Shown one piece after another: positions 29,918 through 42,618 of a stretch of DNA of 64,000 bases. The stretch is from Liolophura sinensis (Eukaryota > Mollusca > Polyplacophora > Chitonida > Chitonidae), in assembly GCF_032854445.1 (NCBI RefSeq), contig NC_088304.1, forward strand, positions 34,641,551 through 34,705,550. The letters run 5' to 3'. Below the pieces are notes generated by a model. That model was given only the letters and a program-made list of their open reading frames with translations. It had not been told where the DNA came from and made no database searches. The first letter of the stretch is position 1. Every line of letters begins with the position of its first letter. Made by a program: the position numbers and the translations under genes.

Positions 29918-32900
29918 TTATATTAACGTGGTCATAACAACATGAAGAAAAACCCATTCCATCAGCAAACACCAGACTGACCATCCACCGCAGGCCACGC
30001 CCAAACCTGCAACAAAAACAAGCGCACTTCGGTTATCGGTTCATTGTTGACATCATTCTTCGTGGCATGTGCATTCGTGGCAATAAGTGGTTGTGTGCTG
30101 AACTGTGTCCTTGTGGTTGTGTGGTGACCTGTGTCTTTGTGGTTGTGTGGTGACCTATGTCTTTGTGGTTGTGTGGTGACCTATGTCTTCGTGGTTGTGT
30201 GGTGACCCATGTCTTTGTGGTTGTGTGGTGACCTATGTCTTCGTGGTTGTGTGGTGACATATGTCTTTGTGGTTGTGTGGTGACATATGTCTTCGTGGTT
30301 GTGTGGTGACCCATGTCTTTGTGGTTGTGTGGTGACATATGTCTTTGTGGTTGTGTGCTGAACTGTGTCTTTGTGGTTGTGTGGTGACCTGTGTCTTTGT
30401 GGTTGTGTGGTGAACTGTGTCTTTGTGGTTGTGTGGTGACCTATGTCTTTGTGGTTGTGTTTGTGACCTATGATTTTATTGCTGTGGAGTGACATATGTC
30501 TTTATGGTTGTGTGGTGAACTGTGTCTTTGTGGTTGTGTGGTGACCTGTGTCTTTGTGGTTGTGTGGTGACCTATGTCTTTGTGGTTGTGTGGTGATCTA
30601 AGTGTTTTTGGTTGTGTGGTGACCTGTGTCTTTGTGGTTGTGTGGTGACCTATGTCTTTGTGGTTGTGTGGTGATCTAAGTGTTTTTGGTTGTGTGGTGA
30701 CATATGTCTTTGTGGTTGTGTGGTGACCTATGTCTTTCTGGCTGTGTGGTGACATATGTCTTTTTGGTTGTGTGGTGACCTATGTCTTTGTGGTTGTGTG
30801 GTGACCTGTGTCTTTGTGGTTGTGTGGTGACCTATGTCTTTGTGGTTGTGTGGTGACCTGTGTCTTTGTGGTTGTGTGGTGACCTATGTCTTTGTGGTTG
30901 TGTGGTGACCTATGTCTTTGTGGTTGTGTGGTGACCTATGTCTTTGTGGTTGTGTGGTGACCTATGTCTTTGTGGTTGTGTGGTGACCTGTGTCTTTGTG
31001 GTTGTGTGGTGACCTATGTCTTTGTGGTTGTGTGGTGACATAAGTCTTTGTGGCTGTGTGGTGACCTGTGTCTTTGTGGTTGTGTGGTGACATATGTCTT
31101 TGTGGTTGTGTGGTGACATATGTCTTTGTGGTTGTGTGGTGAACTGTGTCTTTGTGGCTGTGTGGTGACCTGTGTCTTTGTGGTTGTGTTGTGACCTATG
31201 TCTTTGTGGTTGTGTGGTGACATATGTCTTTGTGGTTGTGTGGTGACCTGTGTCTTTGTGGTTGTGTGGTGACCTATGTCTTTGTGGTTGTGTGGTGACA
31301 TAAGTCTTTGTGGCTGTGTGGTGACATATGTCTTTGTGGTTGTGTGGTGACATATGTCTTTGTGGTTGTGCGGTGACCCATGTCTTTGTGATTGTGTGGT
31401 GACTTATGTCTTTGTGGTTTACTCAATTTACCTGTCATTACACATCTCATGGGTCCTTAGCTATGTCCTCGCACATCTCATCAATCCTTGGTCTTACCTC
31501 TCATCACCTCCCACGTGTCACTTAATAAACAATTTGTTGTCACCCTCGGACTCCCTTACCTGTTGCTTTCTCGTCCTCTGCACAGGGGATCCAGTTGTAA
31601 GGTCGCTGCCAAGGAACTTTGGGACCAGGTGTTTCAAGATTTGTTGTAGTAGTGGATGGGGCAGTGTTTGTTGTACTTCGTGTCAACTCATTTGTAGGCG
31701 TGGGAATCTCGACTGACGAAGTAGTCGTTTCTGAACTTAGACCTCGTGTCGGCTCCACTGCGATGCTTTGGTTGGCCTTTACCCATGTCACATTCTCTGA
31801 CCAGTAGGTAATGTTAGTGATAATGGCCACTGACCGGGTATGTGTGAGGAGTTGACCTGTGACTGACTCCTCTTTAGCCGCCTTAGGTATGCAAACATCC
31901 AGGATTTCTCGTACGAAGCCTGGATGCTTGGACTGAATGTATGACCACAGCAACGAGCACGGCTCTGTAACGCTTATGTTTAGACAACCGGAGGCTAACG
32001 CTGAGCTGAAAAACAGTCATATGTAGGTAAACACTTCCCTTTGACGTCAGTGACGTATACATGTACATTTTCATGTATTGCTTTTGGTGAATTTATACCA
32101 AGGCGGTCAAGGAAATCGGACAAAGTTCAGGATGGGGTGGTGGTGTTAAAACTGTACCAGAGCGAAAATTTGAAAAATACTTAAAAACCCCGTTTTAAAA
32201 ACAAAAAAAAAACGCATACAGACGCGCAGTGTCAGAAAGATATATCTAATAACGCTATCACTATACAATGGGCTAAAGGTATACTAAATATAGAAGACAA
32301 AAGAACATTAGCAGAGCAACTATCACATTATTTTTACTATGCCAATATGCCAAAATTATATGCCCGATTTTGACTGGGCTACATTCACAAAGTCTTTGCA
32401 ATTTAAATTTCTGATAATGGATCAACATCTAGGGAATACCACCAACATCTGGGAAATAAAGCCAACATCTAGTTAATACATCCAACATCTAGGAAATACC
32501 ACCAACATCTGGGAAATAGAGTCAACATCTAGTTAATACATCCAACATCTAGGAAATACCACCAACATCTGGGCAATAGAGCCAACGCATAGGGAACACA
32601 GCCAAAACATAGGAAATAGAGCCAGCACATAGGGAACACAGCCAAAACATAGGAAGTAGAGCCAACACATAGGGAACACAGCCAAAACATAGGAAGTAGA
32701 GCCAACACATAGGGAACACAGCCAAAGCATAGGAAGTAGAGCCAGCTCTGTGGGACTAGAGACAACACCTGAGGAATAGAGCCAACATCTATGGAACACA
32801 GCCCACAGCTAGGGATCAGAGCCAACATCTAGTAGAGCCAACACATAGGGAACACAGCCAAAGCATAGGAAATGAAGCCAACACAAAGGGAACACAGCCA

Positions 32901-41900: not shown

Positions 41901-42618
41901 AATTGCAAGTCATTATCAGTGTTTCCTGATTTTGGGACAGAAAAAACTCTTCGAAACTTTATCCCCTCCAAAAATATATGCGTCTGTATCTATATGATGA
42001 ATTAAATTAAAATGAAAATTTAAAGAATGCTATGGACAGAGAAAACGGGAGAATTCACAAAATCCCCTGTCCAAGGCCGGTATTGATTCAATGTGCATTC
42101 GATTAACATAAATTAACACAAATTTATCTACCTTTCATTGGGTTGAACCTAGAAGAGTTGACTACATAAATTAAGCCAAAATTTTCAGTTAGATTAAAAT
42201 AATGTTCACATAAAGTATAAGCGCTCGGAGGCTTTAAGAAAAAGTCATGTGCTCCTGTGCTCGCGTGATTCGGCACCTATTTACCCAGCCCTCGTCTTCT
42301 TAAATGCAGTCTTACATTCATAAACATTGCGGCTTTTTTTTTTTTTTTTTTTTGGAACAAATGCCACAGCTACATCTGATAAACATTTTTGATACGAAGT
42401 TCCCAGGTTTAGCATGCCGCATACGGAGCTGTGACAGGCATTGCTTGATAAGTATTTAAAAAACTCTATTTGCCGGTCCATTTCCAATGCAATAATAGCA
42501 AGGCAGAAATTATGGGCTTAAACTGATGCAAAATAACTTCAGAGAACATACCTGATTGTCCAGTGACGCTGTTCATCATCAGGACACAAAGCAGAAGAGC
42601 GACCTTAAGGGAGATCAT
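29918..42618 (-). CDS. Eight-exon gene for an unrecognised secreted or surface-anchored glycoprotein
   Basis: Exons in transcription order are 42552-42618, 39167-39392, 38481-38608, 37737-37839, 35330-35457, 34496-34595, 31560-32005 and 29918-30006. Together they give 1287 bases and 428 residues. Every junction has GT-AG sites and agreeing phase (1, 2, 1, 2, 1, 2, 1), with no stop. Residues 1-20 are a signal peptide (MISLKVALLLCVLM core). There are about 14 N-glycosylation sequons. Residues 60-140 are helix-prone and might be a SEA-like fold. Residues 141-290 carry about a dozen Cys in C-x(7-14)-C spacings. Residues 335-381 are Thr/Ser/Pro-rich, and 400-428 are hydrophobic, fitting a GPI signal or a membrane anchor. 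The start is the only in-frame ATG before the signal. I recognise no family. The last exon is the least certain: its tail contains Glu and His, and no AATAAA follows. Confidence 0.65.
30085..31430 (-). repeat. 26-bp minisatellite inside intron 7
   Basis: About 51 copies of a 26-bp unit (plus strand CTATGTCTTTGTGGTTGTGT). Because 26 is not a multiple of three, three units make a 78-base, 26-residue pattern, which creates long false His/Thr/Gln-rich frames on the minus strand. A variant unit pair at 30593 and 30671 shows 78-bp block duplication. It lies in intron 7 of the glycoprotein gene. Confidence 0.92.
32425..33800 (-). repeat. 20/40-bp minisatellite inside intron 6
   Basis: Alternating 20-bp subunits (ACATAGGGAACACAGCCAAA and ACATAGGAAGTAGAGCCAAC) form a 40-bp unit repeated about 30 times, with diverged 20-bp units at both edges. 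Frames of 271 and 279 codons on the minus strand (CVGS, YVLAVFP repeats) arise from this array and are not genes. It lies in intron 6. Confidence 0.92.
34021..34282 (+). mobile_element. SINE family A, full length
   Basis: The head GGGGCCTCCATGGCTCAGTT carries a pol III A box, and GTTCAAGTCCAGCTC a B box. The central body and an A-rich end follow. It sits in intron 6, opposite to the gene. Confidence 0.92.
34705..34800 (+). repeat. 30-bp tandem repeat
   Basis: Three copies of a 30-bp unit around GGTAATATGATCGTTGCCG, in intron 5 of the glycoprotein gene. Confidence 0.85.
34991..35218. mobile_element. MITE-like element family H
   Basis: Inverted ends: TTAATTTTAACAGAAAGTCT at the left, and its reverse complement with a few changes at the right (GACTTTGTGTTAAAATTAA). 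About 228 bp long and non-coding. It is related to 21888-22050 and lies in intron 5. Confidence 0.6.
35516..35580 (+). repeat. Dispersed repeat D, fragment
   Basis: GAATGATTATGGCTGAACGC and GCAATATTTCAGCCAT recur at 56227-56287. It appears to be the end of a dispersed element. Confidence 0.55.
35730..35955 (+). mobile_element. SINE family A with a local triplication
   Basis: The GCTGGCTTTCTCTC segment is present three times (35730-35812) ahead of the CCGGCCGTACGTGGGAAGG body. The centre is shortened, and the copy ends in an A-rich tail. It lies in intron 4. Confidence 0.8.
36000..37736. other. Intron 4 remainder, AT-rich
   Basis: No repeat family is recognised apart from a short match to 17297-17320 near 37285-37310. 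No exon is seen on either strand. Confidence 0.4.
37912..37980 (+). repeat. 21-bp tandem repeat
   Basis: Three copies of TAGTGCCGACGGCGAAAATTG, in intron 3 of the glycoprotein gene. Confidence 0.92.
38117..38267 (+). mobile_element. SINE family A, truncated copy
   Basis: Runs from CCCGGCCGTACC through the GAAATATTCTTGAGTACGG core to a short tail. It lies in intron 3. Confidence 0.88.
38717..38830 (+). mobile_element. SINE family A, head only
   Basis: Contains the tRNA-like head (GGGGCCTCCGTGGCCCAG, B box GTTCAAGTCCAGC) and stops at CTCTCCGG. It is the complement of the many 5'-truncated copies, so it was cut by a later deletion or rearrangement. It lies in intron 2. Confidence 0.85.
39518..39874. 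mobile_element. MITE-like element family G1, copy 2
   Basis: The inverted ends GGGAGTTTCAAGTTCGAA and ACTCGAAACTCCCC are clearer than in the copy at 24008-24318. The body is shared (TCATGTGACCTGTC, CTAACATTTTTGAGAAGTC). It lies in intron 1 of the minus-strand gene and ends about 105 bases before the candidate nested gene. Confidence 0.7.
39979..40375 (+). CDS. Candidate small secreted Cys protein, nested in intron 1 of the opposite-strand gene
   Basis: Exon 1 (39979-40063) encodes Met and a strong signal peptide (FVFWAAAVLSFLFLIVWC, ending in VTA), followed by GTAACA. Exon 2 (40122-40375) enters in the matching phase after a CAG and carries five Cys (VCADAVKCS, EICG, LHCNRAKRITQWVYCLQ), one sequon (NGS) and a GTAAGT donor. 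The intron would be only 58 bases, which is short and the weak point. A possible last exon, 41304-41360 after CCCCGTAG, continues in phase for 18 residues with a sixth Cys, giving 131 residues. A TATATAAT lies at 39947. An upstream in-frame ATG at 39925 is possible. I recognise no family. Confidence 0.4.
40481..40622 (+). repeat. Compound AC/AT microsatellite
   Basis: About 60 bases of AC repeat, followed by about 80 bases of AT repeat. Confidence 0.97.
40736..41220. mobile_element. Foldback/MITE-like element family E, copy 1
   Basis: The left end AAAGCAAAGAACACAC and the right end GTGTTCTTTGCCTTTAA are inverted. Matching continues well inward (CATGGAGTACGTGACAGATAA against CATCTGCCATGTACTTCAT). 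About 485 bp and non-coding. A diverged relative lies at 49099-49526. Confidence 0.65.
41361..42551. other. Intron 1 remainder
   Basis: AT-rich, with a poly-T run near 42330. Nothing else is recognised on either strand. Confidence 0.4.

Follow-up and report, generated by a model that had tools for sequence, protein, structure and literature searches.

A probable eight-exon gene for a cysteine-rich secreted or surface glycoprotein in the chiton Liolophura sinensis

Analysis of 64,000 nt of the Liolophura sinensis genome (GCF_032854445.1, NC_088304.1:34,641,551-34,705,550, forward strand; the whole stretch is called the window below) pointed to a gene split into eight exons on the minus strand. 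The locus is very probably a real gene, and its predicted product is highly likely to be a secreted or surface N-glycoprotein. An earlier note on this DNA had described such a chain, with good splice sites, agreeing phases at all seven junctions and a product of 428 residues that carried a signal peptide, about 14 N-X-S/T sequons, about a dozen cysteines (Cys) in a repeated spacing and a Thr/Ser/Pro-rich stalk. Joining and translating the exons reproduced the chain, its phases, the product length and each of these protein features; the splice sites were for the most part good, with the exception of a weak acceptor at exon 2. All seven introns are GT-AG, every exon is open in the frame it needs, exons 2 to 8 are entered in phases 1, 2, 1, 2, 1, 2 and 1, and the stop codon ends at 29918. 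The first AATAAA past the stop lies at 28817, approximately 1.1 kb further on. Exons 1 and 2 and the last exon are the less secure parts of the model. The exons are listed here in window coordinates, with splice-site ranks among the 933 GTs or 716 AGs of a 13.5-kb stretch:

Exon 1, 42552..42618, minus strand: start codon (A at -3) and signal peptide MISLKVALLLCVLMMNSVTG, supported by hydropathy; donor CAG/GTATGT, rank 4/933
Exon 2, 39167..39392, minus strand: N-terminal segment, Ser/Thr-rich, with sequons; weak acceptor
Exon 3, 38481..38608, minus strand: remaining part of the region that lacks Cys (residues 98-140, approximately), with three sequons
Exon 4, 37737..37839, minus strand: Cys unit 1, C142-x12-C155-x18-C174
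Exon 5, 35330..35457, minus strand: Cys unit 2, C183-x9-C193-x21-C215
Exon 6, 34496..34595, minus strand: Cys unit 3, C219-x9-C229-x20-C250
Exon 7, 31560..32005, minus strand: Cys unit 4, C258-x8-C267-x21-C289, then a linker with three sequons and the Thr/Ser/Pro stalk (28/50 residues at 336-385)
Exon 8, 29918..30006, minus strand: C-terminus that ends with its hydrophobic stretch and has no cytoplasmic tail (possible anchor signal), TAA; acceptor rank 1/716

The first 20 residues of the product read as a signal peptide, both by hydropathy and by the usual cleavage rules, with V-T-G before the cut. They are followed by a Ser/Thr/Pro-rich segment (residues 21-73, 40%) and a region devoid of Cys (residues 74-140). 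The 16 Cys comprise one in the signal peptide, three near the C-terminus and 12 in an array that spans residues 142-289 with gaps of 12, 18, 8, 9, 21, 3, 9, 20, 7, 8 and 21. This array is made of four units of the form C-x8-12-C-x18-21-C, one each in exons 4, 5, 6 and 7, and the spacing therefore recurs every three gaps, besides every six. When the gaps were permuted 100000 times, the period-3 regularity was equalled 184 times and the period-6 regularity 110 times; among 100000 random placements the corresponding counts were 2 and 13. Downstream of the array, three sequons lie within residues 298-335, and the stalk, rich in Thr, Ser and Pro and probably O-glycosylated, would be mucin-like.

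Growth of the array by duplication of exon pairs, as the earlier note had suggested, fits the spacing and the phases; because exons 4-7 are entered in phases 1, 2, 1 and 2, the copied block would be a pair of exons. No trace of it was found in the residues. Similarity between the exon pairs was no better than chance (p 0.49), comparisons of single exons with each other gave p 0.14-0.85, and a MAFFT alignment of the four Cys units did not bring their Cys into register. In the absence of any such likeness, the copying itself can only be inferred.

Tests at the level of the product gave stronger evidence for a gene than those of the splice chain. Exactly 14 sequons were counted in the 421 amino acids of the chosen frame. 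Read in the remaining two minus frames, these exons gave 2 in 847 amino acids, and in the three plus frames 5 in 1268; the background for the window, taken over six frames, was 6.1 per 1000. When residues 21-398 were shuffled at constant composition (n=5000), 5.15 +/- 1.91 sequons were obtained, and no shuffle reached 14. For comparison with chance chains, 200 were made and six dropped for products shorter than 100 aa; among the 194 used, none matched the sequon density, one had an equally hydrophobic N-terminus and six had an equally hydrophobic C-terminus. Frame-specific sequons and Cys periodicity support a gene of this kind from DNA alone. In addition, G+C was above that of the 200-bp flanks in six of the eight exons.

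Splice sites were scored over the 13.5-kb stretch with a generic matrix. The seven donors of the model ranked 1, 2, 4, 9, 17, 49 and 57, and its seven acceptors 1, 3, 4, 8, 12, 52 and 116. A dynamic-programming scan that was ignorant of the proposed model was then used to chain exons blindly at penalties of 10, 12, 14 and 16, with coding weights trained on three neighbouring frames only (a galactosyltransferase; a long frame that has no Pfam match and lies beside a RING finger; and a transporter of the major facilitator superfamily, MFS). At penalty 14 without coding weight, the best chain consisted of exons 3-8 exactly, with a different first exon and without exon 2. With a coding weight of 0.5 or 1, the real score was matched by 0 of 100 shuffles at each of the four penalties, and a larger run at penalty 14 and weight 1 gave 0 of 400. 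In larger unweighted runs, 8 of 200 shuffles matched the real score at penalty 12, and at penalty 14 the count was 2 of 400.

Searches for relatives agreed with the earlier note, in which no described family had been recognised. No Pfam model matched the product, whole or in parts, or its Cys region at the model's own cut-off (HMMER filtering removes the majority of matches above 0.1 or so), and NCBIfam returned no match to the product. Rows for DUF6675 (E 0.0061 for the whole protein and 0.00072 for one part), TAFH (E 0.041, 0.014 and 0.0032), New_glue, ACBP4_C and PDT did not reach the respective cut-offs and were treated as chance matches. A single PDB row had E 1.2, and Rfam gave no match across the entire window. 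In the chiton's own genome (609 Mb, 632 contigs), queries with the Cys region and the N- and C-terminal parts found only themselves, apart from six rows at E 0.39 or worse; the three of these that were inspected (L005-L007) were noise-like, and L013-L015 carry two stops each. Thus, the paralogues that the earlier note had proposed to look for were not detected in this genome, and the gene appears to be without a second copy there, although a search that goes exon by exon may overlook distant paralogues made of short exons. That no other locus was matched above noise speaks against a fragment of a repeat or transposon. Within the window, tblastn at lax settings recovered the gene's own exons and, among the best 60 rows, otherwise nothing better than E 0.24 for the Cys region. 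Viral and prokaryotic contig collections, which say little for an animal gene, yielded pattern matches and no relative.

Taken as a whole, the reading that we favour, with moderate confidence, is that of a real gene encoding a glycoprotein with a Cys head, a stalk and a C-terminal hydrophobic anchor segment. A number of observations weigh against it. The acceptor of exon 2 is the weakest in the model, and exons 3 and 4 are not above their flanks in G+C. Synonymous codon choice was intermediate (z 3.76 vs. intergenic background and -1.47 vs. the neighbouring genes), and this signal vanished with the exons' own base composition as the null (z 0.20), for which reason codon choice is only consistent with coding. 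Exons 2 and 3 had a positive full codon score against the neighbours; in exons 1 and 4-8 it was negative or close to zero, and exon 7 was outscored by an antisense frame that contains four stops. By a crude helix/strand propensity index, the Cys units did not lean towards helix. In the blind scan without coding weight, the real score was matched by 8, 3, 0 and 2 per 100 shuffles at penalties 10, 12, 14 and 16, respectively; since up to 8 of 100 shuffles equalled it, splice strength by itself is suggestive rather than decisive. Higher scores than that of the locus came from the minus strand at 16-29.5 kb (at penalty 10 with every coding weight and at penalty 12 unweighted) and, under a number of settings and most markedly with weight 1, from the three plus-strand stretches that hold neighbouring coding genes. 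At weight 0.5 and penalty 14 the scan trimmed exons 1, 5, 7 and 8 and omitted exon 6, and laxer settings brought in small exons absent from the model. Because other stretches outscore the locus and other settings shorten, drop or add exons, the exon chain constitutes good evidence, short of proof.

The weak codon bias, together with a model drawn from the DNA sequence of one genome alone, could be taken to indicate a decayed gene or a chance chain without a product, but this is most improbable given intact splice sites, 428 codons over eight exons free of frame lesions and a sequon enrichment seen only in the chosen frame. It is scarcely more credible that exon 2 is spliced over a 69-bp intron to an acceptor at 39097 to give a short product, alone or as an isoform, with a TAA after a hydrophobic end. 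That acceptor (score 7.2, rank 20/716) is stronger than that of exon 2 and offers a competing ending, a further point against the full chain, as the minus strand is open for 51 codons at 39097-38941 and ends in NVYICILLYLCPYFIQ before the stop. The acceptor of exon 3 (38608) is, however, equally good (7.6), and exon 3 contributes three sequons and belongs to the best blind chain. A real gene whose product is a soluble secreted glycoprotein of the haemolymph or matrix, exon 8 being wrong or alternative, is unlikely but deserves more weight. The Glu and His inside the hydrophobic stretch favour it, as does the finding that, at a laxer cut, an equally good end is reached from 13 of the window's 484 phase-compatible acceptors, exon 8 included. 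Against this, the acceptor of exon 8 is the best of the stretch, exon 8 alone among the 32 strongest phase-compatible acceptors yields such an end, and surface proteins typically bear Ser/Thr/Pro stalks. A precedent for the soluble design is the snail protein CRASP, which is described as a secreted mollusc orphan, N-glycosylated, all-helical and Cys-rich (PMC4596865).

At this C-terminus, the last 19 residues (410-428) are hydrophobic right to the end (Kyte-Doolittle 1.88). Alternative terminal exons with a fitting phase and an acceptor score of at least 5 were sought down to 20.6 kb. Besides exon 8, only one of them, at 26491, ended in an equally hydrophobic stretch (Kyte-Doolittle 2.18); it was rejected, being farther away and having a weaker acceptor (5.7). 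A C-terminus that stays hydrophobic to the last residue is as in signals for a glycosylphosphatidylinositol (GPI) anchor, whereas Glu or His inside the stretch is unusual for them. The GPI reading is therefore weakened by E416 and H421, which interrupt the tail, and a GPI anchor signal is proposed here tentatively, at somewhat less than an even chance; a transmembrane end is improbable, and a different or secreted end takes up the remainder. Of the GPI-anchored or membrane mucin-like surface protein that the earlier note had envisaged, the split gene, the secretory N-glycoprotein, the Cys array and the stalk were borne out, and the anchor is a possible feature.

The introns and surroundings of the gene hold features of their own. 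Intron 1 contains two candidate exons on the plus strand that may join in phase; they could belong to another small gene for a secreted protein, opposite in orientation to the first, and had no Pfam match. Large minisatellites occupy much of introns 7 and 6, with units of 26 bp x 51 and of 40/80/120 bp, and the long repetitive open frames that arise from them are unlikely to be genes. A dispersed element with the core GGTGTTTTACGCCGTACTCAAGAATATTTCAC, which we take to be SINE-like (resembling a short interspersed nuclear element) and presumably similar to mollusc repeats, is present in seven copies in the window at no more than three mismatches; the copies at 35895 and 38221 fall within introns 4 and 3 of the gene, respectively.

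39979-40063, plus strand: signal-peptide-like exon MPSNDFVFWAAAVLSFLFLIVWCACVTA, donor rank 16/934
40149-40375, plus strand: Cys-bearing exon, acceptor rank 62/721, strong end donor of rank 7/934
30087-31419: minisatellite in intron 7
32423-33749: minisatellite in intron 6
2198, 7784, 17836, 35895, 38221, 45943 and 63252: copies of the dispersed element
8098-9336, plus strand: galactosyltransferase frame, a neighbouring coding gene
18233-20516, plus strand: RING-finger frame, then a long frame in another register; B-box row below cut-off
About 57700-62039, plus strand: MFS transporter with introns, a neighbouring coding gene

According to the favoured reading, this eight-exon animal gene, of which no second copy was detected in its genome, would encode a product that a signal peptide, later cleaved off, directs into the secretory pathway and that is probably heavily N-glycosylated at the predicted sites. 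Four 3-Cys units (residues 142-289), one per exon and probably helical in fold, would form a compact head in which twelve Cys could pair in up to six disulphides. The stalk, probably O-glycosylated, would hold this head off the membrane, while the C-terminal hydrophobic segment would be swapped for a GPI anchor or, less likely, kept in the membrane. The head would most likely bind a protein or a small ligand at the cell surface, a role that we infer from the layout only. Annotation that relies on homology can overlook fast-diverging surface proteins whose genes consist of short exons, and taxon-restricted secreted or surface glycoproteins are a kind well known in molluscs, CRASP being one example. 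The product, perhaps GPI-anchored and taxon-restricted, is at present one more of these, and because proteins of such design are well known its significance is modest unless orthologues reveal a new domain. Should the layout of one unit per exon hold in orthologues, a new extracellular module would be in hand together with its mode of growth. A bolder version, in which serial 3-Cys units derived from duplication of a two-exon block form a new extracellular domain at the head of a lineage-restricted GPI-anchored receptor, is possible but doubtful.

Among known systems, GFR-alpha, GAS1 and the Drosophila GDNF receptor-like protein are GPI-anchored and built of helical Cys-rich modules, and the design proposed for the chiton product resembles theirs. 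Their Cys spacing presumably differs from that of the product, and no Pfam row for a GDNF/GAS1 domain was obtained for it. A second comparison is with PF01579 (DUF19), which we take to bear the name T20D4.11-like and to have a similar Cys layout. Its model has 157 positions, and the Cys region is of similar length. Under the same HMMER filters, PF01579 gave no row for the whole product, the Cys region or the parts; it gave none at E<=10 in the chiton's own genome either, where exons are split, and 14 control genomes were equally silent. DUF19 is accordingly a lead by length, secretion and presumed Cys layout, and membership is not claimed. The family is reported as largely secreted, with 51 genes in Caenorhabditis elegans, 42 of which have a signal peptide and 14 of which are induced by infection (PMC3534327), and one protein is listed in oyster (PMC10058639). 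In a further source, the matches were to DUF1943 rather than DUF19 (PMC8021180).

The nearest design met in the literature searched was CRASP; neither homology to it is claimed, nor that the chiton gene itself is missing from publications or annotation. This Cys-rich atrial secretory protein of the land snail Achatina achatina is described as secreted, 158 residues long, N-glycosylated and all-helical, with five disulphides, and as an orphan for which its report gives no detectable relatives at the time of publication (PMC4596865). CRASP is soluble and has 10 Cys, arranged in the motifs C-9-C-6-C-28-C and C-11-C-8-C-10-C plus an N-terminal pair (PMC4596865), whereas the chiton product has 12 Cys in its array and a stalk besides; the nested disulphide motifs, as given there, do not recur in its gaps. 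Of four longer CRASP peptides compared with the product, three gave no signal (p 0.36-0.65), and one aligned marginally (p 0.002; 0.004 and 0.008 with Cys fixed), with one of its two Cys in register. The likeness lies in the design as described: CRASP is a mollusc orphan, Cys-rich and N-glycosylated, like the chiton product (PMC4596865).

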